Source of the DNA: Bradymonas sediminis
GTDB taxonomy: Bacteria; Myxococcota_A; Bradymonadia; Bradymonadales; Bradymonadaceae
Direction: 5' to 3'
Assembly: GCF_003258315.1 (NCBI RefSeq)
Contig: NZ_CP030032.1
Coordinates: 2,767,804-2,831,803, forward strand
Length of the DNA: 64,000 nucleotides
Position numbers and translations under genes: made by a program. This document shows positions 18,701 through 40,244 of the stretch, piece after piece (within the stretch, counting starts at the first letter, position 1; the number at the start of each line of letters is the position of its first letter). The notes beneath the pieces are model-generated. The model searched no databases. It was not told the DNA's origin and saw nothing but the letters and a program-made list of their open reading frames with translations.

Positions 18701-20607
18701 TAATCGAAGGTCCGCGTCACCGCGTCGATGCCGCATAATGACTTCAGCCAGGCCGCGGTATTATGCATCGAATCGGTGCCCAGGATCAGGGTCACCGGCG
18801 CGCTCTCCTCGCCCAATTGATTGGTGCCAAGCAGCTCGCGCACCCGCAGCGTTAGCCGACGAAACGCCAATTGCATATGGACCTCGACCGGCCCACAAAA
18901 CGACTCGGCGTCGTCGATAATAATCAGGCCCAGGGTCTTTAAAAACGGCGCAAAAAGCTGCGGCTCATCCAGGATCGACACCACCAATTGGCGAAGGCTC
19001 GTGACGATGACATCGGGGATAATACCCTGGCTAAGATCCGAGATCAGGCTGGAATTTGCGGCTTTTACGCGCAGCGTCCAGCGAAGCGTCGAGGGCTCCA
19101 GGGTCGCGCGCAGCAGCTCGCTAAAGCGCTCGGCGGACTCCTCGTCGCGGGTGACGACCAGCGTCGAGCGGGTGTGGGTGAGCGCATGGTTGAAGGCGGC
19201 GAGCATGGCGAGGGTGGTCTTGCCGCTGCCGTCGGGCGCGAGGATGACCTGGTTGCGATGGCGCTGGCCGGACTCATCCTCAATCCCCGCCCCGCTCACC
19301 CGTCCCAGCTCCAGACTCGCCGCTTTGGGCGGCGGGTCGAGGTGGACATAAGCCTGGCGCGAGAGCGTCTCCAGGACGCTCTGCTGCATATGCGTCAGCC
19401 CGATCTTTTGGGCATCGGGGTTATCCGAATGGCTCGGGTAGATCTCTTCGAGCAAATCCGAGATGAGCCCGCGGTCGGCCGGCCGCGCGGCCGCCTCGAT
19501 CGGCTGAACGACGCGCGGCGCCTCGAAGGTATAGGGCTCCTCGACCAGCAGCCGCGTCTTGAGATCGGCGAGCACGTCGGGCCAGCCCTTGCCCGGGTCG
19601 GGCTCGACCTCGGGGGGCGCCTCGACCTTGGGTTCGGACAAATACCAATGCCCCGACAGGCTCAAATGAATCGCCCACGAGACCCAAAGGATCACGCTGA
19701 TCGAGAAGAACGAGCTATGCATCCGATAGGGGTCGCCCGCGATCGTGCCAAGCCCCCAGGCCAAAAACGGCACCGCCGCGACCAATAGCCAGGACGCCCA
19801 GCTTCGATAGGAGTCATCCGCCTTAAAGAGTTTGCTCGCCCCAAACCAGGTCCGCCAGCTCGCCAGCAGATGGTTATTATGGATGCGCGAGGCGAGGTTC
19901 GCCCCGAGCTCGCTGCCGTAGACGACGCGGATGATTCGCGCGGTCCACCACCAGACGCCAAACCACAGCGCCGCGGAGCTCAGAAGATTCAGGTAGGGAA
20001 AACGCTGCAAGGGCATATACCACTGCATCTCGGGGCGCGAGCCCAGCAGCAGATATTGCCAGGCCGGCGCGCCCTCGCCCAACCCGAGTTGGTAGCGAAG
20101 CAGCGGCTCGGTCAGCCAGGCCAGGCCAAAGAGCGCCGCGACGATCAACCCCGCCCACAAAAACGACGGCCCGATGCTCGCAACGATCACCGAAGGCGGC
20201 TCTTTTGCTTCGGCCTTCTCTTCTTTTTCTTTCGCGTCATCCTTGCTCGCGAAGAGCGCGCCGATCGCATTAATGGCCGCACGTATCGCCCGAATTATGA
20301 GCAAAATCGGATAGATAAGCACATAGACGACGACCACCGGCAGCAGGAACGCCAGCTCCTGCATGGGGATGGAGACCGTGTCGCTCGGGTTGGCGATCAA
20401 CGCGCGGTTGATGCGGCGCTGCATGGCAAAGGCGATCGAAAAGGCGAGCGCGCAGACACCCAGAATCACCAGCGCGGCGCCCATCGGGCCGATATGCTGG
20501 GCGAGGTCGAAGGCCTCGGCCAACCAGCGCCACATCTGGGCGATGAACATGCGAATTAATAAGACCAGCCCCGCGATGAAGCCGTTTCCTCCGGGAAGAT
20601 CATTCAT
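15787..20607 (-). CDS. membrane-anchored SF2-like ATPase with DUF1998-like and inactive transglutaminase-like regions
   Basis: A 1606-residue protein. Residues 1-320 hold about six transmembrane helices. A cytoplasmic RecA-like domain follows with Walker A APDGSGKTT near residue 460 and a DEAD-like Walker B IIIDDAES near 563, plus VIVTSLRQLV between them. The second lobe is poorly conserved and I see no QxxGRxGR arginine-finger motif. Around residue 1146, GFYLYDPHLGGNG resembles the DUF1998 domain of MrfA-type helicases, but the usual four-Cys zinc cluster is missing. Near residue 1477, LGNQESQSLLLAILLRHVGI aligns with the transglutaminase core GDCxDxxxLLxALLRxxGI, with the catalytic Cys replaced. 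A GGGAGG site precedes ATG 20607, which overlaps the upstream gene by 8 bp. Probably an inner-membrane NTPase; nucleic-acid activity is uncertain. Confidence 0.7.
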   Translation of the reverse strand: MNDLPGGNGFIAGLVLLIRMFIAQMWRWLAEAFDLAQHIGPMGAALVILGVCALAFSIAFAMQRRINRALIANPSDTVSIPMQELAFLLPVVVVYVLIYPILLIIRAIRAAINAIGALFASKDDAKEKEEKAEAKEPPSVIVASIGPSFLWAGLIVAALFGLAWLTEPLLRYQLGLGEGAPAWQYLLLGSRPEMQWYMPLQRFPYLNLLSSAALWFGVWWWTARIIRVVYGSELGANLASRIHNNHLLASWRTWFGASKLFKADDSYRSWASWLLVAAVPFLAWGLGTIAGDPYRMHSSFFSISVILWVSWAIHLSLSGHWYLSEPKVEAPPEVEPDPGKGWPDVLADLKTRLLVEEPYTFEAPRVVQPIEAAARPADRGLISDLLEEIYPSHSDNPDAQKIGLTHMQQSVLETLSRQAYVHLDPPPKAASLELGRVSGAGIEDESGQRHRNQVILAPDGSGKTTLAMLAAFNHALTHTRSTLVVTRDEESAERFSELLRATLEPSTLRWTLRVKAANSSLISDLSQGIIPDVIVTSLRQLVVSILDEPQLFAPFLKTLGLIIIDDAESFCGPVEVHMQLAFRRLTLRVRELLGTNQLGEESAPVTLILGTDSMHNTAAWLKSLCGIDAVTRTFDYSDDGYGDASSATGTEALEDAEPGRYHLFYQLSDFSTQTGDGVSVADLIASCERLGIAWHYHRCGDAMRRHGRRQLKLGQEPQYDVESPLDACVVFLEGHISTVRREIRHLSRAGLRYLPAEGETELAGPVPIALISVVDSDERMALTELNPNSSLAEIVRTLPRPVVRAPFGQAVEAHLASDLVDTWLEVADILDVFGNTAVHTLSRLAESGLLLHESRTDLDEAHNEYETNLHVRVPLKAVASGKEHDPSSVAHLLPPRVAQVERPPGPSVAVRDRTNLTVLEETDKISARHLYYPGRIFESAKGRYVVVSRAAEESRQQRKTSPVSAHDILVEPFLNDEISSPRRRTYVRPMRSSDMLPGAVAPLRANAKSGENNVDAEPLFIGDFPLAVSLGAVECRTQHRATFRLDAHHYEVRQRILFDDIEPETLRTVALGIYPNPALEIVSSPDCPRLQLRDARLIAAAMRALLPSIYRGADSDIQVALHIADPDAPPEHALGPDEGFYLYDPHLGGNGTAHAIHRDGVELLLRFCRVYLERVLYHDRLRARYDFWADEDELHGRRRVGQARSRDDIYYEDLSERDRDQFARKRALSWLDSRLRPEGSSTGGKRRAQFGVGSEEGEGDIFDLGRCWFSADGSVTDLIWTRHRWMLDSPREVGASEDSPRAQMSEEAMCDVGIGREIAARARIYDADTPQLSEQLNWITKQLQNPAFMLEDQSIWGTPCTVWEADGDSDAATGSDAALLKLPATLAFQKLANAIVCDNYEMLAPLAELLAERSGFRSAEPGRDGVLGGGGLGGDEERRRFEMARFLADFVQGIPFVPEDDPETIFGPVHTLLYRLGNQESQSLLLAILLRHVGIDAGLFLHPESDSICCGAALPADPSAEGIARWRAEFGDPEQSLIWAELAPQPGATGGVERAFVPIVTDSQTPLASIEALGLSSDGQGKWVFLPLSAAWLRLGVEKREIKEER

Positions 20608-23600
20608 CGTTGCCTCCCGTCGAAGTCGGGTCCTTCGCCGGCTCGTCCTGCCCGGCGTCCATCACCATTTGCTGGGCCGAGGATTCGAGCTCTCGCGAGT
20701 GATAAAGAACGTCCTGATTGATGCTATTTTGCAGGGATTCGTATCCCGTCAGATGATTGATCGGCATGCTCTCCCAGCTCTGGCGACTCTCGCCAGACAA
20801 CGGAAAGGTTCGGTCATCGGGCATGCGCGCGCGATGATGGAAGGATTCGAAGCGGCGCAAATTGCGCAGGCTATGCGGGCGAATGCCCTGCACGAGCGAG
20901 AGCATATACGCGGCGTTTGGCGGCACGCGGGCGACCTGAACCTTGATCCCCTGAAGCTGGGCGGGCGCGCCCTCGGCGTCTTTGGCGGCGTCGAAAACCG
21001 GCTCAAGCCCCGGGTGCAAAACGAGCGTCGAATCGGCCAGCAGATGAACGCCGTCGGGGTCGAGCCCCTCGTAGCCGACGAATTTGGCGCCGAAGCCAAT
21101 ATTGGGCGAATTCGTGATGACAAAATCCACCAGGCGCTCGCGCAGTTCATCCTCAAAGTCAAATTGACGGCTGACCGGGTCGGCCACGATCTCTTGGAAA
21201 TGCGCGCGCGTGAACGCCATGATGCGGGCCGAATCCGACATCGACGCGACCTTTCGCCAATTCTCAAAGCCGCCGACGGCCTTGATAAACTTCTCGAGCA
21301 TCTGGTCGATCTCGCGGGTTCCGCCGACGCGGCCGCGATAATAATCGATCAGGTGTTCCGACGACACGAGCAGGTCGCTGGGCATGCGCGACTGTGAATT
21401 AAAGAGTCGGCTAAGGTCATCCGACGGCTCGTCAGCGCCGCCCGCGTCGAGCTCGGTCATGCTAAATTGGACGCCGAGGTTCTCGGCCCGGCGGGTCAAA
21501 TATTCGCTCTGCAGGTCAACGCTGCGGCGCAGACGACCCGCGTGGCTTAAGTCGCGCAGCACGCGCTCGTAGACCTGGCCGGCGTAATTTCGGGTCGCCA
21601 GCGCCCCGCTATGCGCCAGGCGCGCCTGCATAAACGAGCGAATCGAGGGTGCGCTGGACAGCGGATTCTCACCGCCCTCGACCACCCGCCGCACCGCGTC
21701 GCTCATCTGATTGACCGCGCCCTGAAGTCGCTCGACATAGTCATTCATATGTCGGCGAAGCAGCCAGAAGACCGGCAAAAACACCAGCAGACCGCCGACC
21801 ACCGGGCCGAGCGGGCCCAGCAAAAACTCGGCGACGCCCGGCTCGGCCTGCAGCTCCATGGCCTCGGCGATACCCCACGACAGCGGCGCGCCGAGCACCG
21901 GCGACAAGATCGCCCAGACAAGGAGGCCAAGCTTCATCGCGTCATTATCGGGCTTGTCACGCGCGATCGAGAGCACCTGCTCGCGGGTGGACTGCAGGGC
22001 GTCGGTGCTCGGGATGCTATGGCTCAGACAAATTCGCTCGCTGTCGAGGCGTTGCCTTTCGTGGTCGCGCAGATGATCGCGACCGATATCATGAAGCTCC
22101 TCAAACCCAGCATACGCGCGCTTGAGCCCGCCCTTGCTGGCGTGCTCGTCGATGAGGCGGTCGCCGACTTTTTGCACCACGCTCAGCGTCTGCCCGAGCT
22201 CGCCCGAGGTCTCCCGGCGCAGCGCGTCGACCATCTCGTCCATCTGACCGCGGCGCCGGGTAAACGCGCGCCATTCATCATAAATATGCGCGCGTAGCTC
22301 CTCTTCAAAGGCGTCATCGAAGCGCGATTCGACCAGGCTGGCGCGCGTGTCGGCGTTGACCGCGACGCGCCCGAGAATCCGAGCGGCCATCGCCTTTGCC
22401 GAGCTGCCGGTTTCCTTGGCGAGCGAGCGCACGGGCTCAGCGAGCAAATCCTCCACTTTGGGCGGACTGATCGGCGCATCGCTGACCTTGGGCAGCCCGC
22501 CCTGCTCGCCGCGCTTAATGCGGGCGAGGCTCTGGCGGGCGAAGCGATTGGCCAAATATTCGCGCGCCTTCTCGGCCGGAAACGAGATCTCGTGGCAGGA
22601 GAACGACGCAAAAAGATCATCGCCGCGCGCGGCGGTGGCGGTGCGCCGAAGCCACTTGTCGCTGGCCAGATCGCTGCGGATCTGGAAGCTCAAGAAGTCG
22701 CGGGTCTGGCGCACCGAATCCCAGACCGACAGCACCGCGTTATCGGTCACCCGGCTATTGATGATGACCTGAGGAATGCAGCGCTTGCCACGCGGCACCG
22801 ACTCCACCCAACGCCTAACCCCCTGAATCGATTCGATAATCGCGGCCTCTTCGCCACGATTCTCATTGGGATATTTGCCGCCAAAGGAGTCTGCCGGGTG
22901 CGGCATCCACAAGATCGGCACGACCGAGAGCGCGCGGTCAAAACCCTCGCGGAAGGACTCAAAAATCGGGCCAAAGGCGCGCAATAACTCGGCGTGAACC
23001 TCGCGCAAAATCGTGCGCATCGAGGTCCGCGAAAACGCCTCGCTCATATCGCCGACCACGTAGACGGTCAGCCGCGGCGCCTGGGTCCCCGGCTTATTGC
23101 GATACTCTTTGAGAAACGAAAACTCATAGAGCTCGCGGGTTTGGGAGTTCAAAAGGCTACGCAACTCAAGCAGACCCGGGCTGCGTTGGTTGAGAAATTC
23201 CGAGCCGACGACCCGCCCTGAGTCCAGGTCGTTGATGATATCTTCGGGGCTCAGGCGCACCTCATTAAAGAGCGTTCGCGCCGGCGCAGCCTTGGTCGGC
23301 GAGCCAAAGCCCAGCTCCTGAAGACGCGCGTTGAGCACATGCTGCACCTTATTTTCGGGCGAGCTTTCTTCGACCACCAGACGGCGCAAAAACTCACTGG
23401 CGCCCCGGGGCAGATTGGCATCCCCGCCGTGCGCTCGCTGCGCGTAAGCATCGGAATCATCGCCTCGATTAGCCGCGCTCCGCCGCACAAAGTCCAGCTC
23501 GGCGCGCGCGCCATCGGGCTCTTCATCGAAGGTCTCCGAGATCAACGGGCGCACCAATAACTCGCCCAAAATCTCGAGCGATTGATCGAGCGCGTCGTCC

Positions 23601-24799
23601 GAGTTGGCGCGGTAGAGCGACGCCTTATGCTTCTCGTCGGAGGTCTCGACCCGCTCGCGCTGCAGGTCGACCCACATGCGAATCAGGCCGCGATGGGTGT
23701 GCACCGCCAGCTCGCGCAGGCGTTGCCGAAATTCCTCGCCGTGGGTCTGATGCACCCGCGAGCAATCGTCGTGGTCAAAGAGCCCGAGTCGAAATGGGCT
23801 GACCTCGACCGGGTCAAACTCCACCGCCTCGCCCATCCCGGTGTCACGCGTCGCCCAGCCGGTCGTCTCCCAATCGACCCGAAGCAGGTCGAAGGGAGAA
23901 ATCGGCGCGCTTAGATCATGGCCGCGCGGCAAAAATGGCGCGGGGAGCGTCAACGAGAACTCACGCTCGGGGACCTGAAGCTCCTGCAGCGCAGGCAACG
24001 CACCGGCGGCGCCCAGGCCATAGACCCACTCGGACCAACCCGCCCGCGGGTCTTCGGAGATGCCGTCGAGCAGCCCAGACAGATCCCCGGGCTCAAGCCA
24101 GTCCCGCTCGAATAAGATAGTTTGCTCACCGGCCGCCTGCGCCAATTCCTGGCGCTCGCCGACGGCCTGCGCAAACCATTGCCAGGGCGAGGGGTCGCGC
24201 CCTTCGGCCAGCGCGCGACAGCGACTCACACAGCCGAGCACCGCGCGCGGGCTATGCCCCTGACGGATGCGGTTGACCAACGGTGAGATAAAAAGATCAA
24301 CTTCGGGGTGGCGCTCTTTGACTGCGCGAAGACGCTCCACCGAGGTGATCGGGTCGGGACTAAGCGACTTCCACTCAAAGAAGCGACGCCGCGCGAAATA
24401 GTCCTCGTCGCGCGCGTCTTGCCCCGCCCCGCCGGGCACTTCGACCACGCCGCGGTCGCGCGGAATCGCGACCTGATAGGTGCCATTTCGGTAGCGAATC
24501 AGCCCGAGCGCGCGCAAAATCACAAAATCAAGGGCGAGCGTGGGCAGGTCGCCCTCGCCGGTATAGCGGGCGATCTCTACAAATTGGCGCTCGCTGTCGC
24601 GCCAACGCGCGTCATCGACCTGCGGGTTGGCGCGCAGGTGAACCAGGCGCAGGTTCTTAAGCGATGCCCCACCACCGGCTTGCTCAAGCGTCTCCCAATC
24701 CTCGCCGAGACGCTCGAGCACCGCCAACCCCAGGTCGCCCAATCCCAGCACGATACTCGGCGCGGGATAGGACAAACGCTTATCGGGTCGCTCATTCAT
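20600..24799 (-). CDS. degenerate tubulin-like protein with two membrane helices
   Basis: A 1399-residue protein that begins with SIVLGLGDLGLAVLERL, a glycine-rich Rossmann start like that of the tubulin-like neighbour. It does not keep the GGTGSG signature: the equivalent position seems to be VYVVGDMSEAFSRTSMR. Residues of about 950-1040 contain two hydrophobic helices (LLVWAILSPVLGAPLSWGIA and LGPVVGGLLVFLPVFWLL) flanked by long, probably coiled-coil helices. The C-terminal part includes FGAKFVGYEGLDPDGVHLLA. The start ATG overlaps the stop of the upstream gene (ATGA, 24796-24799). I interpret it as a non-catalytic, membrane-tethered partner of the upstream tubulin-like protein; the homology is inferred from gene order, size and the N-terminal motif. 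Confidence 0.65.
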   Translation of the reverse strand: MNERPDKRLSYPAPSIVLGLGDLGLAVLERLGEDWETLEQAGGGASLKNLRLVHLRANPQVDDARWRDSERQFVEIARYTGEGDLPTLALDFVILRALGLIRYRNGTYQVAIPRDRGVVEVPGGAGQDARDEDYFARRRFFEWKSLSPDPITSVERLRAVKERHPEVDLFISPLVNRIRQGHSPRAVLGCVSRCRALAEGRDPSPWQWFAQAVGERQELAQAAGEQTILFERDWLEPGDLSGLLDGISEDPRAGWSEWVYGLGAAGALPALQELQVPEREFSLTLPAPFLPRGHDLSAPISPFDLLRVDWETTGWATRDTGMGEAVEFDPVEVSPFRLGLFDHDDCSRVHQTHGEEFRQRLRELAVHTHRGLIRMWVDLQRERVETSDEKHKASLYRANSDDALDQSLEILGELLVRPLISETFDEEPDGARAELDFVRRSAANRGDDSDAYAQRAHGGDANLPRGASEFLRRLVVEESSPENKVQHVLNARLQELGFGSPTKAAPARTLFNEVRLSPEDIINDLDSGRVVGSEFLNQRSPGLLELRSLLNSQTRELYEFSFLKEYRNKPGTQAPRLTVYVVGDMSEAFSRTSMRTILREVHAELLRAFGPIFESFREGFDRALSVVPILWMPHPADSFGGKYPNENRGEEAAIIESIQGVRRWVESVPRGKRCIPQVIINSRVTDNAVLSVWDSVRQTRDFLSFQIRSDLASDKWLRRTATAARGDDLFASFSCHEISFPAEKAREYLANRFARQSLARIKRGEQGGLPKVSDAPISPPKVEDLLAEPVRSLAKETGSSAKAMAARILGRVAVNADTRASLVESRFDDAFEEELRAHIYDEWRAFTRRRGQMDEMVDALRRETSGELGQTLSVVQKVGDRLIDEHASKGGLKRAYAGFEELHDIGRDHLRDHERQRLDSERICLSHSIPSTDALQSTREQVLSIARDKPDNDAMKLGLLVWAILSPVLGAPLSWGIAEAMELQAEPGVAEFLLGPLGPVVGGLLVFLPVFWLLRRHMNDYVERLQGAVNQMSDAVRRVVEGGENPLSSAPSIRSFMQARLAHSGALATRNYAGQVYERVLRDLSHAGRLRRSVDLQSEYLTRRAENLGVQFSMTELDAGGADEPSDDLSRLFNSQSRMPSDLLVSSEHLIDYYRGRVGGTREIDQMLEKFIKAVGGFENWRKVASMSDSARIMAFTRAHFQEIVADPVSRQFDFEDELRERLVDFVITNSPNIGFGAKFVGYEGLDPDGVHLLADSTLVLHPGLEPVFDAAKDAEGAPAQLQGIKVQVARVPPNAAYMLSLVQGIRPHSLRNLRRFESFHHRARMPDDRTFPLSGESRQSWESMPINHLTGYESLQNSINQDVLYHSRELESSAQQMVMDAGQDEPAKDPTSTGGNDE

Positions 24800-27700
24800 T
24801 CTTTATCGGTCGTGGTAGGAGCGATGGACGGGTCGGCCGACGGCTTCGAGCGTTTGTTAAACGACGCCCGGTCGATCTCGCCCGAGCGCAGAATATCAAG
24901 CGTTTGCTTGAACTGATCTTCGCCGATGGGGTTGAAGATATTGCGGAAGTCCGAGGCCACCGCGCGACTCTCCTCGGGATGCTCCATCGCGCGCCAACCC
25001 TCGACAAAATAGCGCAGGATTTCGATGGATTGGCGCAGGTTCGACTGCGCAATCCCGTCGGGGAGCCCGGCGGGGTTCGACTCCATCACACCGCCGATGG
25101 TCCGCTGCTCAGCCTCAATCGAGCGCAGCCGCTCGAGCAACGCCTCAAGCGCCTCGGTCATGCGGCTATAGGAATCGGTGAAGTCCTTGAGCTTAAGCCG
25201 CTGCTCCGGCGAGGGCTCACTGCCGTATTGGGTGCGCAATTGGTCGCGGCTTTTGCGCCACTTATAGGGGAGCTTCACGACCTTCTCGAGCACCATCGGC
25301 GCCAGCCCGTATTGCACACCCTGGAGCATCTGCTGATAGCTCAGGTATTTGACGCGCTCGGCCTCGAGCAGGTCCGGCAGGCGCTCAATCGCCTCGGTGA
25401 GCGACTCGCCGAGCTCGGCCAGCCCCTCGCCGTCCATCGCGTGGGTCTGCTGCGGGTCACGCAAGAAATAACGCCCGTTCCGATGAATCAGATACCCCGA
25501 ATGCGCGCCGTAAGGGTCTTTGAGCGTCAGCAGCACGCCGAAGTTCACGATATGCTGGCGCACCAACTCCTGGCGGTGCTCTTCGAGCGCGCCATCGGGG
25601 TCGAGATCGGGCAGCGTATTCTCCCAATTCTTGTCGATATGCAGGACCTTGGCGCGCTTCGCCATGCCCTTGAAGCGGTGATAATACTCGCCCATCTCAC
25701 GCATGCGCCCGAAGACGTACAGCGGCACGTTGAGCACCGCGCGGTAGAAGACGATGGCGTGCGGGTCATGCCACTCGTCGTCGAGCCATTTGATGCCCGC
25801 CGACTCCACGCTGGTGATGGCCGCCTCGATATCCGGGTCGCCGAAATCGCGCGACTTAAGCCCCAAAAAGATATGATTCGGACGCACACCGCCCTGCTCG
25901 CTTCGCGACTCGTCGAAGCTGCACAAGAGCGCGGCCTTTTCGGATTGAATGCGCGAGACTTTATCGCGGAAATACTCCTGATAGACGTCGTCGCCCAGGT
26001 TGATCTGCTCCTCTTCGGGCCGGCTGCGATAGCGCGCGACGGCGTCGCGAATCGCCTGCGCGCCCTTGGCGTCGATCTCCTCCTGATTGCTGCGATACAG
26101 CGCGCGATACTCGGCCTCCAGGCGCAGCGCCTGGTCGAGGCGAAGCCCGTTGCGCCGCGACGGGTCCTGCGACTTGGGATCGCCGCCGATGCGGGTCTTT
26201 AAGAAGCCCTCGATATACTCGAGGAGCGACTCATAGATGCGCTGCAGCTTCGCCGAATTACCGACGCCGGTCTGCAGACTCATCATCCGAAGCACGCCGT
26301 TTAGGCGCGTTTGAATCGGCTTGCTCTGCAGGCTCAACTCGCTAAGCGTGTCGATCTCGTCTTCGTAATAGAAGTCCCACATCCGCCGGCCGTTCTCGAT
26401 CTGCAGGGCCTCGGTGTCGATGATATATTGATTCGCCGAGTCATCGCCCTCGACGCGCAGCCGCTCGTTCTCGCTCTGCTTGGTGCGCGCGAAGGAGTCA
26501 AATCCCTGCTCCAACCCGCGCAACTGCTCGGCCAGGCCGAGCAGGTTATTCCGGAAGGTCGCGCGCTGGGCCAAGAAGGACTTCTGAACCTCATAAAACG
26601 CCTTGGCCGCCTCGTATTCGTAGAGTTGGCCGATGATGCGCTTGAAGTCGTCTTCCTTGATGCGGTCGCCCTCGTCGCGGTCGATCTGCGGCGGCTTGGG
26701 CTCGGCGATGCGCGGGTCTTCGGCCTTGAGCGCGTCGAGCACGCTCAGCGCGGCGTAGCGCTGCGCGGCCAGGTTCACCTCACCGGCGTCGTTCTTCATA
26801 AAGTCGAGGTCCACCAGTTCGCGCATGCCCGGGATCAACACCTTCATGCGCGGGTCGTGGTACCCATTCTCGATGATATTCGTGCCGACCTGGGTGAGCC
26901 GTCGGGTGTTGCTCGACACCACCGAGCGCCAATAGGCCAGGTCGTTATTCTTCTCGTAGGGGGTCTGCTCGATGCCACTCTTCATCTCGTTTTGAATCGC
27001 GGCGTTGGCAAATTTCGTCAGCCCGGGCCACGGGTCGCCGCCCACGGACTCCAAAAGTATCGCCCCGATGGAATATTTCATGCCGCCCTGGCCGAGGTTC
27101 TCGCGCTCCTGGCGCTCCGCGTCGGCGTCGACGTCGACCTTCCCGTCGATCTTCGGGAAGCGGCCAGGCTGATGGCCGTGGCGAAAGATCTCCATAAATT
27201 GCGCCGACGAGCCATCTTCGTGCTCGCAGGCCGCGAGCAGGCGCACGCGCTTTTGGAAGAGTCGGTCGCGCAGGCGTTTCTGGGTCTCGGAGTCGCGCTT
27301 GGCGAAGTCGGCCAAATGGATGGGCGCGGCGTTCTCGCCGTCCATCTCGGTGACCTGATAGAAGCCGTCGGCGTTGCTGCGAAGCGGGCTATAGACCTTG
27401 CCGCCGGGGATGCTCCCCAAAAAGCTCGAGCGCATCAGGCTGAGCGCCGCCGAGCGCGCGCAATAGTCGACGAGTCCGTCGACGGGCACCAGGAGCACCG
27501 CCGAGCCAAAGGAGCCATAATATTGGGTATAACCCACGATCCCCTTGCCCTCGAAATCGTGGGGGACCAGAAAGCGCTGGTGCTGGGTATAATTATCATA
27601 ATCGCCCATCTGCACCTTAAAGAGCGGCGTAAATAGCTGCAGATAGAGGCCATCGGCGGCCGCCTGCACCGGCTTTTTGAGGCTATAGGACTCCGGGCGG

Positions 27701-28545
27701 TCGATAATATACATGAAGTCAAAGGGCTGCTGATACACGCGCCGCTTCGAGGTATCGCCCGGGTTATAATGAAATTCGATGCCGTCTTCGGGGTAAAAGC
27801 GCGACTCCGGCGAGCCCAATTTCATCAGGTGCTCGGTCTCTTTGAGCGCGGCGTACCCGTTGGCGAAGGTGCCGTCTTTATTGGCGCCGGTTTTGTCCTC
27901 GAAGACCGCCGGCATCACCGTGACGCCGATCATCGTGGGCTTGCCAAGCTCCTTGGCCTGGTCGCGCAACGCATAGGCGAGCGGCAAGAAACTACCCGAG
28001 CCCGTGCCGCCGGCGACCGAATAACACATCACGATGCGAATCTCGGTCGTCTGCAGGCGGCGATGCCCGTGGTTGTGATTCTTCATCGACTCAAGCAGGC
28101 GGCGAAAGCGCGCGAGCATGCCCTTATGCTTCATCTGATAATAGGAGCCCAGGCGCGACTCGATGCGAATCTGCCCCGCCCCGGCGGTGTCTCCGGCGCG
28201 GAAGCGATAGTCCTGGGGCACCCATTGGGTGAAATAGTCGTCGGCCTCCAAGAAGAGCTTTCCGCCGGCCAGATTCGCGTACTCTTCCTTCTCAAAATTA
28301 CTGATCAGAAAGGACTCGTCGGCGTGCTCCCGATAGTTTTCGAGGTCATTGATATTGGTATCAATAAACGCGAATTTGATCAGGTCTTTGTAGCGCTCAT
28401 GATAGTCATCCTGGCGCTTAAGATGCTGCGCGACGCGCACGGCGATCTCGCTCCCGCACCCACCGATGCCCACAAACAAAGTGGGGCTCACCATGCTTGG
28501 TTTCGTCAGCAACTCTTCGACAATCGCGCGCTCATTATTCGGCAT
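24796..28545 (-). CDS. tubulin-like GTPase-fold protein (Tubulin_2 type)
   Basis: A 1249-residue cytoplasmic protein. TLFVGIGGCGSEIAVRV at residues 23-39 is the nucleotide-binding first loop, and VMCYSVAGGTGSGS near residues 172-184 contains the GGTGSG tubulin/FtsZ signature that contacts the phosphates. FAFIDTN is the strand typical of the tubulin/FtsZ N-domain. These motifs fit the bacterial family annotated as tubulin-like (Pfam Tubulin_2). About 700 residues of charged helical sequence follow, including two long segments likely to form coiled coils. No membrane helix is seen. It lies 22 bp after the VWA gene and overlaps the degenerate partner by 4 bp. GTP binding is likely; polymerisation is unknown. 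Confidence 0.82.
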   Translation of the reverse strand: MPNNERAIVEELLTKPSMVSPTLFVGIGGCGSEIAVRVAQHLKRQDDYHERYKDLIKFAFIDTNINDLENYREHADESFLISNFEKEEYANLAGGKLFLEADDYFTQWVPQDYRFRAGDTAGAGQIRIESRLGSYYQMKHKGMLARFRRLLESMKNHNHGHRRLQTTEIRIVMCYSVAGGTGSGSFLPLAYALRDQAKELGKPTMIGVTVMPAVFEDKTGANKDGTFANGYAALKETEHLMKLGSPESRFYPEDGIEFHYNPGDTSKRRVYQQPFDFMYIIDRPESYSLKKPVQAAADGLYLQLFTPLFKVQMGDYDNYTQHQRFLVPHDFEGKGIVGYTQYYGSFGSAVLLVPVDGLVDYCARSAALSLMRSSFLGSIPGGKVYSPLRSNADGFYQVTEMDGENAAPIHLADFAKRDSETQKRLRDRLFQKRVRLLAACEHEDGSSAQFMEIFRHGHQPGRFPKIDGKVDVDADAERQERENLGQGGMKYSIGAILLESVGGDPWPGLTKFANAAIQNEMKSGIEQTPYEKNNDLAYWRSVVSSNTRRLTQVGTNIIENGYHDPRMKVLIPGMRELVDLDFMKNDAGEVNLAAQRYAALSVLDALKAEDPRIAEPKPPQIDRDEGDRIKEDDFKRIIGQLYEYEAAKAFYEVQKSFLAQRATFRNNLLGLAEQLRGLEQGFDSFARTKQSENERLRVEGDDSANQYIIDTEALQIENGRRMWDFYYEDEIDTLSELSLQSKPIQTRLNGVLRMMSLQTGVGNSAKLQRIYESLLEYIEGFLKTRIGGDPKSQDPSRRNGLRLDQALRLEAEYRALYRSNQEEIDAKGAQAIRDAVARYRSRPEEEQINLGDDVYQEYFRDKVSRIQSEKAALLCSFDESRSEQGGVRPNHIFLGLKSRDFGDPDIEAAITSVESAGIKWLDDEWHDPHAIVFYRAVLNVPLYVFGRMREMGEYYHRFKGMAKRAKVLHIDKNWENTLPDLDPDGALEEHRQELVRQHIVNFGVLLTLKDPYGAHSGYLIHRNGRYFLRDPQQTHAMDGEGLAELGESLTEAIERLPDLLEAERVKYLSYQQMLQGVQYGLAPMVLEKVVKLPYKWRKSRDQLRTQYGSEPSPEQRLKLKDFTDSYSRMTEALEALLERLRSIEAEQRTIGGVMESNPAGLPDGIAQSNLRQSIEILRYFVEGWRAMEHPEESRAVASDFRNIFNPIGEDQFKQTLDILRSGEIDRASFNKRSKPSADPSIAPTTTDKE

Positions 28546-31551: not shown

Positions 31552-33462
31552 CTAATTAATCGCCAGGATCACCCGAAAGGTGCTGCCCTCGCCTACCGTC
31601 GTCTCAACCTCGATCTTGCCGCCCATCGACTTGATGATATTGCGGCAGACATAGAGCCCCAGGCCGGTGCCATCGCTGCGTGATTTCGTCGTGAAGAACG
31701 GCTCAAAGAGCCGGCGTTTATCGCGCGCCAAGATGCCCGGCCCGTTGTCTTCGACCTCGATGATCACATACCCATCGCGCTCGGCGATGCGCAGATAGAT
31801 CTTATTCTTGTCGACCGAATCCTCGGGCATGGCCTGGGCGGCGTTGAGCAGCAAATTCACCAGGACCTGGCGCAATTGGCCACCATTTGAGTCGAACTCC
31901 GGGATGTCTTCGAACTCGCAGAAGAGCGTCGCGCGGTGGCGAATCTGACTGTCGAGCATGCGCGCGGCCGAGCGGCAAATCTTTCGCAGGTCGACCGCTT
32001 CATCGGTGACCGGGCTTGAGCGCCCAAACGTCATCAGGTCCTCGACGATGACGCTGATTCGCTGCGCCCCGCTATACGCCGCGGTCAACGCGCGGCGCAT
32101 CTCTTGAATCTCGGTGCCGACGATCGAGACGATATCGGCGGCCTCAATCGTGTCGCCGTCAAAGACCTCGCTCTCAAGCGACTCCAGCACGAATTGCACA
32201 TTCCCCAGCAGATAGACCAGGGGATTATTGATCTCATGGGCGATGCCGGCGGCCATGGTGCCGATGGTCGAGAGTCGGTCGGCCTGCTGGACCTGGTCGT
32301 TGAGCAGCTTGCGCTCGGTGATGTCGATCAAGACGCCGCGCCATAAAATCGAGCCATCCTCGCATTTCTCGGGCGTCGACTGCCCGGCGATCCAGCGGAT
32401 CTCCCCGTTATCGTCAATCACCCGAAACTCATCGACCCACATCTTCAACTCGGCGGCGGCGCGCATCGTCGACCTGAGCAACCTCGGGCGGTCTTCCTCA
32501 ATGATCTCGTAGGTGTACTGAGTGATATCATCGCCCTTATATTCGGCGAGTTTCTCAAATCCTTTGACGCTGCCGACGGTGACGTACTCCAACGCGACGG
32601 AGTTATCGGGGAATTGACGAATCTGGTAGAGCGCCGCGGGCAACTGCTCGCTGATATACCCGAGCACGATCTCCTGGCGGCGCAGCTTTGACTCGGTCTG
32701 CCAGCGCGCCTCGATATCCTGCATCACCCCCTCGTACTCAAGGAGTTGACCCTGCTCGTCGTAGGTGGGCCGCCCCTCGCAATAAATCCTGCGGGTCCCC
32801 CCGCCTTCAAGGAGGACGCGAAACTCCAGGGCATAGGGCTGCTTGGTCTCAACCGAAAGCTCAACGGCCTTCTCGAAGGCGACACGATCGTCCGGATGTA
32901 GGTGGGAGAGCACCTCCGGAAAACTCAGCGTGCCCGCCGATGGATCGAGGTCCAGAAGTTCGTAGATCTGCGGCGACCACCAGGTCTCCAGGGTCAGCGC
33001 GTTCCAATACCAACTCCCTACATTGGCGCGCTCCTGGCCTTGTTCGAGGCGAACCCGAATCCGCTGAACCTCCTGAGCACGGCGCAATCGCCGCGCGGTC
33101 GCCTCGGTGCGGCTGTGCAGAATGGGCTCCCTGAGGACCGTCGGGAGAACCTCATCCGCGCCGGATGCATAGAGGCGCATCACCCCATCGACCTCGTCGC
33201 CGACCCCCATCACCAGAATATACGGCGGCAGCGGACAGCTCGCCGTCTGGGGCAAGAGCGATGTCAGCAGCTCACATATCGCGTGAATATCCCCCTCGGC
33301 CTGAATCAAGACAATCGCGGGCTCCGTCTGAACCTTTAAGACCTGCGCGAGCATCTCAGGGCGCACGGCGCTGCGGGTCCAACTGCACCCCGTTTTTTCG
33401 ATATGCGCGAGCAATTGTTGCGGGCGATGAGCAGGTAGAATTGACCTAATTTCAATATTCAC
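31552..33462 (-). CDS. cytoplasmic PAS-domain sensor histidine kinase
   Basis: A 636-residue histidine kinase. The first 130 residues resemble a receiver-like fold (YILVMGVGDEVDGVMRLYASGADEVL) without a clear phosphoacceptor Asp. Two PAS domains follow (ANVGSWYWNALTLETWW and the GSVKGFEKLAEYKGDD region), each ending in a PAC-type strand. The HisKA box is GTMAAGIAHEINNPL with the phosphoacceptor His near residue 410. The ATPase domain has the N box (LLLNAAQAMPE), EVEDNGPGI and GTGLGLYVCRNI. No membrane helix is seen. Start GTG 33462 has a GGAGAG stretch upstream. It lies on the same strand 185 bp before the VWA gene; no response regulator is adjacent. Confidence 0.85.
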   Translation of the reverse strand: MNIEIRSILPAHRPQQLLAHIEKTGCSWTRSAVRPEMLAQVLKVQTEPAIVLIQAEGDIHAICELLTSLLPQTASCPLPPYILVMGVGDEVDGVMRLYASGADEVLPTVLREPILHSRTEATARRLRRAQEVQRIRVRLEQGQERANVGSWYWNALTLETWWSPQIYELLDLDPSAGTLSFPEVLSHLHPDDRVAFEKAVELSVETKQPYALEFRVLLEGGGTRRIYCEGRPTYDEQGQLLEYEGVMQDIEARWQTESKLRRQEIVLGYISEQLPAALYQIRQFPDNSVALEYVTVGSVKGFEKLAEYKGDDITQYTYEIIEEDRPRLLRSTMRAAAELKMWVDEFRVIDDNGEIRWIAGQSTPEKCEDGSILWRGVLIDITERKLLNDQVQQADRLSTIGTMAAGIAHEINNPLVYLLGNVQFVLESLESEVFDGDTIEAADIVSIVGTEIQEMRRALTAAYSGAQRISVIVEDLMTFGRSSPVTDEAVDLRKICRSAARMLDSQIRHRATLFCEFEDIPEFDSNGGQLRQVLVNLLLNAAQAMPEDSVDKNKIYLRIAERDGYVIIEVEDNGPGILARDKRRLFEPFFTTKSRSDGTGLGLYVCRNIIKSMGGKIEVETTVGEGSTFRVILAIN

Positions 33463-35513: not shown

Positions 35514-37232
35514 ATGAGTGATAAAATCATTAACCTGGACGCGCATCGCCCCGACTCCCCCCTGAGTCATGTGACGCGCTCGCTGCCGCCAGGAGAGCCT
35601 ACCGAACAGATCAAGGCCATCCTCGACATGGATGATCCCGAGGGGTTCTTTGAGCAATTGGACGCCCAGGTTTTTTATCAACTCATCAAGTCGGCGGGCT
35701 GGGATCAGACCCACGATCTGATCCACTACGCCACGCCCGCCCAGATCCAGAATTTCGTCGACTTCGACTGCTGGACCCGCGACCGCCTGATCCCCGAGAA
35801 GATGGAGAAATGGCTGCTGGCCATCGTCACCGAGGCGAGCGATGAGAAGCTCAAAAAGGTGATGCGCGAGGTCGACGCCGAGGTCATCTCCATCTATTTC
35901 AAATCCTTCTTGCACGTCGAAGACCTCGACGATGGCCGCATCCCGGACCACCTCGAGGGCAACGTCTCGATGAGCCCGGACGGCGCCTACGCGCTGGTCT
36001 ACCCCGAGAACGAAGACCGCGCCGCGCTGATGCGCGCGCTCGTCGAGCGCACCTACGCGGTCGACCGCGTCCTGGTGTGGACCCTCTTTGAGGCCACGCG
36101 CTGGGAGTTGATGAGCGAGATGGAGGAATACGCCTATAAATGGCGAAATAGCCGCCTTGAGGAGTTCGGATTCGTCAGCCGCGAGGAGGCCATGGAGGCC
36201 TACCAATACCTCGACCCGGCGAAATTCCGCGACAGCCTGGACAAAAAGCCCAGCCTCGACGCCTTTATCGAGCGCGCGTTGCCCAAAAATATCGACCTGC
36301 CCGTGGTGGTCGAGGATGAGCTCGACGAGGAGTTCTTCGTCTACCGCGTCCTGAACACCATCGACGACCCCCGGCAGATTCAGAGCATCATCTATCAGAT
36401 CGGCGCGCTCACAAACCGCACCATGATGGCCGACGGCATCGAGCCGGGCGAAGTCGAGAGTGGCCGCGAGGTCGCGCGTCGCACGCTGGGCTATTTGAGC
36501 CTTGGCCTCGAATTCTTGAGCCGCGCCGAGATGGCGCGCGCCGCCGAGACCCTGGCCAGCGTGCCGGTCAAACGCATCTTCCAGGTCGGCTTCTCGCTGC
36601 CGCGCAAACTCCAGGCGCAGCTCGCGAGCCTCGAGGAGCGCCCCGCGCTGACCCTGATCGACGGCGAGCGCTACTCGCTGCTCAACGAAGACGAGCGCGC
36701 CCTGGCCGAGTCCCTGGACCGCCCGCGCCCGACCTTCGCCTGGGATTGGCGAAGCTTCGAGATTTTCAAATCTCAGGACCAGCTCGACGCCGCCGCGGTG
36801 CGCATCGGCATGCTCGCCTTCAAACAGATCTGGCTCTTCGGGATCATCGAGCAGACCCCGCGGTCACTGAGCGAAACGCTGGACTCCGAGCTGCTGGCCA
36901 ATAACGAGACGACCACGACCTTCGACGTCTTTTTTGCGACCTGGCTGGCTCGATTTATCCTGGGCGACGAGCCGCGCATCGACCCGTTGGACGGCGCCGA
37001 GATCGCCCAGCTTATCCAGAAGATCAATCAAGCGCCCTGGGACGCCGAAGGCGGCACCGCCTTCTTCAAGCCGCTCCTGGACCAGCTCAGCGCCAAGATG
37101 CCGCCCTCTTCCAATGTGCTCTTTACCCGCTGGGTCGTCGCGACCCTGGCGCGCCTGGACGACGAGTTCGCCGGCGTCACCGGCGTCGACAACTCCGCCC
37201 TCTTCCAAGAGGTCGTATTGGTTCACGTCTGA
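35514..37232 (+). CDS. DUF6178-like protein
   Basis: A 572-residue soluble, acidic, mostly helical protein. The N-terminal region (EQLDAQVFYQLIKSAGWDQT, then FVDFDCWTRDRLIP) has the pattern I associate with the DUF6178 family, common in deltaproteobacteria and without known function. No catalytic motif, signal peptide or transmembrane helix is visible. ATG 35514 has an AAGGCGG stretch upstream. It lies between lysS and ftsK on the same strand and may share transcription with lysS (69 bp gap). Confidence 0.65.
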   Translation: MSDKIINLDAHRPDSPLSHVTRSLPPGEPTEQIKAILDMDDPEGFFEQLDAQVFYQLIKSAGWDQTHDLIHYATPAQIQNFVDFDCWTRDRLIPEKMEKWLLAIVTEASDEKLKKVMREVDAEVISIYFKSFLHVEDLDDGRIPDHLEGNVSMSPDGAYALVYPENEDRAALMRALVERTYAVDRVLVWTLFEATRWELMSEMEEYAYKWRNSRLEEFGFVSREEAMEAYQYLDPAKFRDSLDKKPSLDAFIERALPKNIDLPVVVEDELDEEFFVYRVLNTIDDPRQIQSIIYQIGALTNRTMMADGIEPGEVESGREVARRTLGYLSLGLEFLSRAEMARAAETLASVPVKRIFQVGFSLPRKLQAQLASLEERPALTLIDGERYSLLNEDERALAESLDRPRPTFAWDWRSFEIFKSQDQLDAAAVRIGMLAFKQIWLFGIIEQTPRSLSETLDSELLANNETTTTFDVFFATWLARFILGDEPRIDPLDGAEIAQLIQKINQAPWDAEGGTAFFKPLLDQLSAKMPPSSNVLFTRWVVATLARLDDEFAGVTGVDNSALFQEVVLVHV

Positions 37233-37367: not shown

Positions 37368-37451
37368 GATTCCCCCCCAGCGATTTTGCCCCAGACCTTC
37401 GGGTTCTGGGGCCAAACTGCGACGGAATCGGCCACCACGGAGAAGAGCACC

Positions 37452-40244
37452 ATGGCCTCAGAAACCACGGCAGACGCCGCAAAAAAAACGATCGCAAAGA
37501 AGTCATCCACCAAGAAGAAGTCTTCGAAGAAGAAGTCTTCCTCCAAAAAGGACGCGACGCCCGCCTATTCATCGAAGTCGATGGCGCTGGGGCGCGAGGT
37601 CGGTGGACTGATCTTGATCGCGCTCGCGCTGGTCATCCTGCTGTCGGTCTTAAGCTTTGACCCCGCCGACATCCGCGGCGCGGGCCCGCCCAGCAACCTG
37701 ATCGGACCGGTCGGCGTGCACCTGGGCGACCTGCTGCTCTACCTGGTGGGCGTGGGCGTCTTCTTCTTCGACGCCCTGCTCTGGTACCTGGGTTTTATGC
37801 TGATCGTCGGGCGGCTGATCGAGTGGAAATGGTCCGAGATCGCCGGCCAATTGCTCTTCGTTTTAGCCGGCGCGATGCTCTGCCACCTCGCCTTCGTCGA
37901 GCACACCCTCTTTGGACATATGCCCGGCGGACTCGTCGGCGAATTGACCGCCGAGATCTCGCGCGGCCTGGTGGGCACCGTCGGCGCCAGCATCCTCGGC
38001 ATCAGCACCTTGCTGCTGAGCCTGATGCTCGCCACCGATATGAGCCTGGGCGCATTGGTGCGCAAAATCACCGCCAAGATCCATCATTTCAGCGCCTGGG
38101 TGCAGCACAAACGCACCGTGCGAAAACTCTATAAAGAGCGCCTCGCCGAGGCCCGCGCCGAGCTGATGGCCCTGCAGGGCCTGGACGCCGACGACCCCGC
38201 GCGCATCGCCGCCGAGCTCTCGCTCAAGCCGTTGATCGAGCAGGGATACGACTACGATCCCGAGAAGGAAGTGCAGGAAAAGCTCACCGGCACCATCACC
38301 AGCCTGCTGCGCAGCGAGCTCGACCTCGAAGAGGAAGAGAAGGCGTCGAAGAAGAAGAAATCCAAGAAGAAGAGCAAATCGAAGAGCGACGACAAGGTCG
38401 ACGAGGCCGCGATCACCGTGGTCGCAGACGCCGCCGACGCGGCCGCCGCCGACTCTGGCGAGTGGGAGATGGGCGAGCCCCTGGCCACGGAGCCCGAGAT
38501 CGTTATCCGCCATGTCGAAGACGACGAGAGCCCCGCGGAGGCCGCCAAGCCGGCCCCGGCGGGCGACTCCAAGGTCATCGATATGGGCAAAGAGAAGCAG
38601 GCCTCGGGCCCGGTGAACGCCGACTTCGGCCCGCAGATCGTCGAGAGCGAGAGCCAGAAGCGCTCGCGCGAGAAAAAAGAAATGCTGTCGGCTGACGACG
38701 GCGACGGCATCCTCTTCAAGCCCAAAAAGAAGGGCAAATACGAGCTGCCGCCGATCACGTTCCTGGACTTCGACGACGGCGACGCCGTCGAGATCGACAC
38801 CGACGCCCTGCGCCAGATGGCCGCACAGATCGAGCAGACCCTGGCCGATTTCAAGGTCGAGGGCTCCGTGGTCGAGATCTGCCCCGGCCCGGTCATCACG
38901 ATGTTCGAGTTCAGCCCCGCCCCGGGCGTCAAGATCTCGAAGATCGCCGGGCTCTCCGACGACCTGGCCATGGGCCTGGCCGCCCTGAGCGTGCGAATCG
39001 TGGCGCCCATCCCCGGCAAGGGCGTGGTCGGCATCGAGGTGCCCAACCCGACCCGCGAGATGGTGTGGCTCAAAGAGATCATCGCCGACGACGTCTTCCA
39101 AAATCAGGAGATGCAGCTCCCCATGGCGCTCGGAAAAGGCACCGAGGGCGAGCCGGTCGTCGCCGACCTGGCCAAGATGCCGCACCTTTTGGTCGCCGGT
39201 GCCACCGGCTCGGGTAAGTCGGTCGCGGTCAACACCATGATCGTCAGCCTCTTGTACACGAACTCCCCGGAGGACGTGCGCATGATCATGGTCGACCCGA
39301 AGATGCTCGAGTTCAATATCTACGAGAATATCCCGCACCTGCTGCTGCCCGTGGTGACCGACCCCAACCAGGCGACCATCGCCCTGAACTGGACCGTCAA
39401 CGAGATGGAGCGGCGCTACCAAAAACTCGCCGACCTCGGCGTGCGTAACCTGAAGGGCTACAACAAAAAGGTCGAGCGCCTGACCAAGCAGGCCGAGCTC
39501 GACGCGCTCGACGGCAAGGAAGAATCCGCCGCCATGCGCGAGCTCGACATCCAGGACGACGGCTCCCCGCGCCACCAGCGCATGCCGTTTTTGGTCGTGG
39601 TCATCGACGAGTTCGCCGACCTTATGATGACCGCCTCCAAGGACGTCGAGCAGGCCGTGGCGCGCCTTGCCCAAAAAGCCCGCGCCGCCGGCATCCACAT
39701 GATCCTGGCCACCCAGCGCCCCTCGACCGACGTCATCACCGGGCTTATCAAGGCGAACTTCCCCACCCGTATCGCCCTGCGCGTTACGAGCAAGACGGAC
39801 AGCCGCGTCATCCTGGACTCCAACGGCGCCGAGAGCCTGCTCGGTAACGGCGATATGCTCTTCGTCCCGCCCGGCACCAGCTACCTAAAGCGCGTCCACG
39901 GCGCCTACGTCTCCGAGACCGAGATCCACCAGATCGCCGACTTCCTGCGCAGCCAGGGCACCGCCGAATACGACGAGTCCATCCTGGCCACCGACGACGA
40001 AGACGACGAAGGCGGCAACCCCGAGGACGAGTGGGAAAAAGACGAATATTATAACGACGCCGTACGCATCGTCGTCGAATCCCAAAAAGCCTCCATCTCG
40101 ATGATCCAGCGCAAGCTGCGCGTCGGCTACAACCGCTCCGCCCGCATGGTCGAACGCATGGCCAGCGAGGGCATCGTCGGCGAGTCCGACGGGTGCCGCC
40201 CACGCGACGTGCTGGTCAACGAGATCCCGCCGCATTGCCGATGA
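37452..40244 (+). CDS. ftsK: DNA translocase FtsK
   Basis: A 930-residue FtsK/SpoIIIE translocase, which pumps DNA at the division septum and helps resolve chromosome dimers. After a short Lys/Ser-rich cytoplasmic tail it has about four membrane helices (residues 45-220), then an Asp/Glu/Lys/Ala-rich linker of about 250 residues. The alpha/beta motor has PGPVITMFEFSPAPGVK, Walker A VAGATGSGKSVAVNTM near residue 584, Walker B VVVIDEFADLM and the ATQRPSTDVITGLIKANFP signature. The C-terminal gamma winged-helix (SISMIQRKLRVGYNRSARM) recognises KOPS-type polar DNA sequences. ATG 37452 has GGAGAAGAG upstream; an in-frame TTG at 37386 is less likely. Confidence 0.95.
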   Translation: MASETTADAAKKTIAKKSSTKKKSSKKKSSSKKDATPAYSSKSMALGREVGGLILIALALVILLSVLSFDPADIRGAGPPSNLIGPVGVHLGDLLLYLVGVGVFFFDALLWYLGFMLIVGRLIEWKWSEIAGQLLFVLAGAMLCHLAFVEHTLFGHMPGGLVGELTAEISRGLVGTVGASILGISTLLLSLMLATDMSLGALVRKITAKIHHFSAWVQHKRTVRKLYKERLAEARAELMALQGLDADDPARIAAELSLKPLIEQGYDYDPEKEVQEKLTGTITSLLRSELDLEEEEKASKKKKSKKKSKSKSDDKVDEAAITVVADAADAAAADSGEWEMGEPLATEPEIVIRHVEDDESPAEAAKPAPAGDSKVIDMGKEKQASGPVNADFGPQIVESESQKRSREKKEMLSADDGDGILFKPKKKGKYELPPITFLDFDDGDAVEIDTDALRQMAAQIEQTLADFKVEGSVVEICPGPVITMFEFSPAPGVKISKIAGLSDDLAMGLAALSVRIVAPIPGKGVVGIEVPNPTREMVWLKEIIADDVFQNQEMQLPMALGKGTEGEPVVADLAKMPHLLVAGATGSGKSVAVNTMIVSLLYTNSPEDVRMIMVDPKMLEFNIYENIPHLLLPVVTDPNQATIALNWTVNEMERRYQKLADLGVRNLKGYNKKVERLTKQAELDALDGKEESAAMRELDIQDDGSPRHQRMPFLVVVIDEFADLMMTASKDVEQAVARLAQKARAAGIHMILATQRPSTDVITGLIKANFPTRIALRVTSKTDSRVILDSNGAESLLGNGDMLFVPPGTSYLKRVHGAYVSETEIHQIADFLRSQGTAEYDESILATDDEDDEGGNPEDEWEKDEYYNDAVRIVVESQKASISMIQRKLRVGYNRSARMVERMASEGIVGESDGCRPRDVLVNEIPPHCR

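Follow-up and report, generated by a model that had tools for sequence, protein, structure and literature searches.

Why does the gene for an apparently intact tubulin-like GTPase in Bradymonas sediminis lie directly beside the gene for a second long protein, which starts with a similar glycine-rich motif and lacks the tubulin signature? The question arose from a sequence-only reading of a 64,000-nucleotide stretch of contig NZ_CP030032.1 (hereafter the window; coordinates below are positions in it), in which the second protein was taken to be a degenerate, membrane-tethered copy of the first that anchors or caps it in an active/inactive heterodimer.

The intact Tubulin_2 protein

P0001 (24796..28545, minus strand, 1249 aa) matched Pfam PF13809 over residues 23-370 with an E-value of 1.4e-42, above the cut-off and along profile positions 1-354 of 356. 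Its predicted tubulin-like GTPase domain covers about residues 20-375. Pfam Tubulin_2 (PF13809) is the same family as FtsZl1 of Makarova & Koonin 2010 (PMC2875224), whose members carry a GxGGxG and a GGTG(S/T)G loop, and both loops were present in P0001. The T1 phosphate loop reads GIGGCG (residues 26-31; 28453..28470, minus strand) and the T4 tubulin/FtsZ signature reads GGTGSG (residues 179-184; 27994..28011, minus strand), at which point the sequence-only reading was accurate. Among the aligned relatives, G26, G28, G29 and G31 of the T1 loop were invariant (74/74), as were GGTGSG (74/74) and, elsewhere in the domain, GAGQIR (GAGQ) and N318 (74/74 Tubulin_2 proteins). Judged from its sequence, P0001 is clearly a member of FtsZl1 / Tubulin_2 and a predicted GTPase.

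A neighbour that has lost the signature

The neighbouring protein P0002 (20600..24799, minus strand, 1399 aa) matched no family in Pfam or NCBIfam. Against PF13809 no match was found at E-values up to 1, either for P0002 or for its compact relatives, and a cyanobacterial partner reached an E-value of 0.15 and no more. BLASTP of P0001 against P0002 showed no recognisable relation (E 0.33). P0002 adjoins P0001 in Bradymonadales relatives too, with 39-62% identity, and this conservation together with the PF13809 match of P0001 argues that the pair is not a product of chance. Lujinxingia vulgaris and a Lujinxingiaceae assembly are among the relatives of this genome, and their names suggest a place near the Bradymonadales of the Myxococcota. 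Outside the Bradymonadales, members of the P0002 family are mostly shorter (760-950 aa), and residues about 86-540 of P0002 (~450 residues) form an insert that is absent from the compact relatives. In the Lujinxingia-type partners (L051, L052 and L053), tandem PGTRSEHDR-like peptide repeats were seen both internally and at the C-terminus.

A remnant T1-like loop, GLGDLG, lies at residues 19-24 of P0002 (24728..24745, minus strand; family consensus G[LVI]GxFG). Because residues ~86-540 are an insert, the place equivalent to GGTGSG falls at residues ~583-590, where P0002 has GDMSEAFS (23030..23053, minus strand), as located with an alignment of 37 partners and an alignment to the Tubulin_2 profile. 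Residues 175-190 (RIRQGHSPR) were considered for this site as well and were rejected, as they are inside the insert. In the alignment, AGGTGSG of Tubulin_2 corresponds to GDMSEAFS in P0002 and to DLGEPxV or similar in the compact partners; the T4 loop is replaced in every partner, often by acidic residues. When 44 distinct pairs were compared, GGTG[ST]G was found in 44/44 Tubulin_2 proteins and in 0/44 partners, the sole glycine-rich match seen in a partner being in the T1 loop. The observation that the neighbour has GLGDLG without GGTGSG was thus confirmed, and the loss, which had been proposed for checking over many pairs, proved constant.

In the alignments, nothing in the compact partners corresponds to the Tubulin_2 invariants G29, GAGQ (GAGQIR) and N318 either. 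With the T4 signature and these invariants gone, nucleotide binding has likely been lost from the P0002 family, as far as its sequences can tell. The GxGxFG part of the T1 loop is retained in most partners, which would suit a P0002 whose altered pocket can still hold nucleotide and which builds a second, active polymer; we regard this as quite unlikely in view of the replacement of GGTGSG in all partners and the absence of GAGQIR and N318 from the compact ones.

Homology of the partner to Tubulin_2

Taken alone, the profile of the long-form P0002 family found the correct region of Tubulin_2 only weakly (probability 11-26), so the compact relatives were used for profile comparison. The profile of their N-terminal domain matched the Tubulin_2 profile with a probability of 96.8, an E-value of 2.6e-10 and a score of 82.6 over 193 columns. 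The controls, which consisted of reversed alignments, 8 column shuffles, and vWA, DEAD and kinase families from the same loci, scored 10-18. A second profile comparison, made with Tubulin_2 of P0001's own lineage, gave a probability of 94.7 and an E-value of 6.4e-8. The partner HMM also matched one Tubulin_2 protein directly, at E 4.9e-5 and over profile positions 5-321, which is the whole domain (best reversed decoy, 0.006). After the strand-loop-helix with GxGxFG, the compact partners continue with strand, helix, strand and helix, the tubulin order. The C-terminal parts of the partner and Tubulin_2 families are unrelated, and the homology is confined to the N-terminal domain. The description of P0002 as a copy of P0001 therefore holds at profile level for that domain, and does not hold for the C-terminal part or at the level of BLASTP.

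Predicted structures were compared by Foldseek. The model of P0002 residues 1-960 had a mean pLDDT of 74, and tubulins were its most frequent top matches, with a best E-value of 0.44 that is not significant. For a compact partner from Enhygromyxa salina (L079, residues 1-400; mean pLDDT 74.7), the best PDB matches were FtsZ and tubulin with probabilities of 0.97-1.00 and E-values of 0.003-0.007, followed lower down by TubZ and PhuZ. Against viral models, a phage FtsZ was best (probability 1.00). The fold scores were modest (TM 0.26-0.41, rmsd about 6-8 angstrom, Foldseek E never below 0.001), and for this reason we treat the fold evidence as supportive and let the profile evidence carry the claim of homology; low TM-scores are as expected for a domain that is degenerate and partly modelled. 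The sequence-only reading had staked its case on a tubulin/FtsZ fold in 20600..24799. That reading was not refuted: a match of this kind was obtained for the compact relative at E 0.003, although for P0002 itself it reached only E 0.44.

A convergent glycine loop in some other Rossmann-type family, for example a KtrA/TrkA_N-like NAD-binding protein, would also account for the motif at the start of P0002. The family motif GxGRFG agrees with that of KtrA, KtrA was returned at E 0.019 when PDB sequences were searched with a profile, and some Foldseek matches were Rossmann oxidoreductases. However, the KtrA match extends over 19 residues, compared with ~190 columns for Tubulin_2 that run through the strand-helix pairs past the loop, and most of the best fold matches were FtsZ, tubulin, TubZ or PhuZ, as was every listed match with a probability >0.9. 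The KtrA-like reading was rejected as a motif-only match, and we consider it very unlikely. The profile and fold matches support P0002 as a very diverged, ancient homologue within the tubulin/FtsZ superfamily, related to Tubulin_2 (FtsZl1), and with this the idea that the neighbour is a degenerate tubulin gains support from both the profile-profile comparison and the fold of its compact relative.

Membrane helices of the partner

A hydropathy scan of P0002 revealed two hydrophobic helices, at residues about 959-977 (21869..21925, minus strand) and about 992-1010 (21770..21826, minus strand). The loop between them is short and acidic and the flanks are basic, which suggests that both ends of P0002 are cytoplasmic. 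Of 37 partners, 35 have one or more strong hydrophobic segments (often two) at the corresponding position, where Tubulin_2 proteins have none. The earlier wording that the neighbour had "gained" two such helices was right in this sense.

The gene cluster

On the minus strand, the order of genes is the vWA membrane protein P0004, FtsZl1 P0001, the partner P0002, the membrane NTPase P0003 and the putative lipoprotein P0006. A gap of 22 nt separates the end of P0004 from P0001, and the following genes overlap (P0002/P0001 by 4 nt, P0003/P0002 by 8 nt, P0006/P0003 by 4 nt). The five genes look like one operon, and the gene order is retained in relatives.

P0004 (28568..31414, minus strand; translation may in fact begin at the Met codon at 31366) gave a vWA match with an E-value of 3e-4, below the cut-off, and has hydrophobic helices near its N-terminus (38-56) and C-terminus (755-773) by hydropathy scan. 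In homologous loci (L081 and L117) the vWA match was above the Pfam cut-off, and vWA proteins are encoded upstream of Tubulin_2 in relatives. An operon with a vWA-domain protein is characteristic of FtsZl1, and here P0004 lies directly upstream of P0001. P0003 (15787..20607, minus strand) is a multi-helix membrane protein with a DEAD-helicase-like NTPase core (DEAD E 1.5e-7), and it also weakly matched MZB (MrfA zinc-binding domain) and transglutaminase. Similar proteins, which likewise match DEAD or MZB, are encoded after the partner at L070, L079 (Enhygromyxa), L081 (a Polyangia genome) and L090 (Archangium). A membrane-bound helicase-like protein inside an FtsZl1 operon is odd. The cluster ends with P0006 (14762..15790, minus strand), which has a lipobox-like AAVSC. 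Beyond the cluster, 138 nt separate the vWA gene from an upstream gene on the same strand for a PAS-domain histidine kinase (31552-33462, minus strand), and a complete FtsK/SpoIIIE translocase (37386-40244, plus strand) is directly preceded by a DUF6178 protein (35514-37232, plus strand).

Such a combination of genes could also be one of the conflict or defence systems of Kaur et al. 2020, the dead tubulin then acting as decoy or effector. Their paper (PMC7159879) reports systems of tubulin, vWA and GTPase, some effectors in inactive versions, and the presence of two tubulin genes in Firmicutes. Against this, PADLOC gave nothing beyond a weak helicase match, and GAP1 (GAP1/DO-GTPase), MoxR and HSP70 were not identified among the cluster proteins tested. 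The defence reading was rejected for want of PADLOC support, and we judge it rather unlikely.

Distribution of the pairing

A single-protein search of genome contigs found no relatives, and an alignment-based search of genome contigs yielded 80 loci. In all 68 non-redundant loci the partner and Tubulin_2 were on the same strand, the partner being nearly always directly downstream and mostly within 100 nt; since Tubulin_2 served to gather the loci, and its downstream neighbours to build the partner profiles, these adjacency counts are partly by construction, and a whole-genome search is the freer test. Among 189 Myxococcota genomes, Tubulin_2 was found in 48 and a credible partner in 24, and all 24 had Tubulin_2 (in G008 only a fragment, at the edge of a contig). 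Two further, weak matches were not counted among the 24, one of 33 residues around the glycine motif (G047) and one within a Tubulin_2 gene (G105). Paired distances of Tubulin_2 and partner were correlated (Spearman 0.78, 37 pairs, uncorrected for shared ancestry). The Myxococcota-type partner family was also detected in Thiodictyon (Chromatiaceae) and in one Symbiobacteriaceae genome.

The partner is not universal, as about one quarter of the Tubulin_2 loci with room downstream, Burkholderiales among them, had no recognised partner. In one Bradymonadia family (f5, L059-L063), Tubulin_2 is followed by a protein of 670-850 aa and then by a large membrane protein. The downstream neighbours in these loci showed no detectable tubulin homology (probability 0.2) and were not counted as dead tubulins.

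In Nostocales (L113-L119, L121-L128 and L139), a ~1016-aa protein without GGTGSG is encoded downstream of Tubulin_2. Its comparison with the Tubulin_2 profile gave a probability of 97.0-97.6 and E-values of about 1e-10 to 3e-12, with a reversed control of 3.4, whereas comparison with the myxobacterial partner gave a probability of 3-7. The Nostocales protein represents a second signature-less partner family, possibly an independent degenerate tubulin. As it is nearer to Tubulin_2 than to the myxobacterial partner, a dead partner may have originated repeatedly. The wider proposition, that many FtsZl1 systems consist of an active GTPase co-assembling with a dead membrane-embedded tubulin homologue that arose more than once, is one we put forward as tentative.

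Proposed role and relation to known systems

We favour, with moderate confidence, the interpretation that P0002 is a diverged tubulin without the T4 loop and with a membrane hairpin, serving as a dedicated partner that anchors or co-assembles with P0001. P0002 would bind P0001 through its tubulin-like face, whether as a fixed subunit, as an end cap or as a lateral adaptor, and the hairpin would keep the assembled P0001 at the inner membrane. At that site P0004, the vWA protein that spans the membrane, and P0003, the membrane-bound NTPase, could be connected to the assembly, which may polymerise and remodel the membrane. The capping or anchoring heterodimer of the sequence-only reading is likewise a proposal.

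The main rival is that a tubulin-fold P0002 regulates or senses P0001 without co-assembly, by sequestering it, by depolymerising it or as a passive membrane receptor. The genomic evidence is the same for this reading as for co-assembly, and pseudoenzymes are often regulators of their active relatives. The translational coupling implied by the 4-nt overlap fits stoichiometric assembly better than substoichiometric control, although this argument is a weak one. Regulation without co-assembly is possible and, in our estimation, the less probable of the two; co-assembly or anchoring stays the preferred interpretation.

Partnerships of this general kind exist elsewhere. One nucleotide site of alpha/beta tubulin is non-hydrolysing, and alpha/beta tubulin and BtubA/BtubB each consist, like P0001 and P0002, of two related tubulin-fold proteins. 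In contrast to P0002, which has no binding loop and carries a membrane hairpin, both subunits there bind nucleotide, so the parallel drawn in the sequence-only reading may be used only as an analogy of how such a pair might work. FtsZ with its anchors FtsA, ZipA and SepF is another case in which a dedicated partner ties a cytoplasmic tubulin-like GTPase to the membrane. However, none of these anchors is itself known to be a tubulin homologue.

The FtsZl1-vWA operon has been known since 2010, when a role in membrane remodelling was proposed (Makarova & Koonin, PMC2875224). P0001 is a member of that family, and its neighbouring vWA gene is the association published there. Unlike the present cluster, the other operon genes described there are mostly lineage-specific and without recognisable domains, and the part of the main text seen mentions no dead, membrane-anchored tubulin partner. 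The GAP1-N2 GTPase systems of Kaur et al. 2020 (PMC7159879) resemble the locus in having tubulin-domain proteins beside vWA proteins and, in Firmicutes versions, two tubulin genes. They differ in being from Firmicutes and Actinobacteria and in having a GAP1 GTPase, and in the part of that source seen the second tubulin is not called dead or membrane-anchored. No description of a degenerate, membrane-anchored second tubulin or FtsZl1 partner was found in the open-licence literature, the supplementary tables of PMC2875224 and PMC7159879 aside.

A reviewer of the 2010 paper asked how a cytoplasmic FtsZ-like protein acts with periplasmic and outer-membrane partners (PMC2875224). A dead, membrane-anchored tubulin encoded next door would be a concrete and testable answer in those lineages that have the partner, and P0001 and P0002 could serve as a defined pair in assays of heterodimers and filaments. 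If the interpretation is true, this would be an unusual case of a tubulin-fold protein giving up its nucleotide site to become the anchor of an active one. The pairing of an active with a dead tubulin in many myxobacteria and some other bacteria suggests how a poorly understood cytoskeletal system may reach the membrane.
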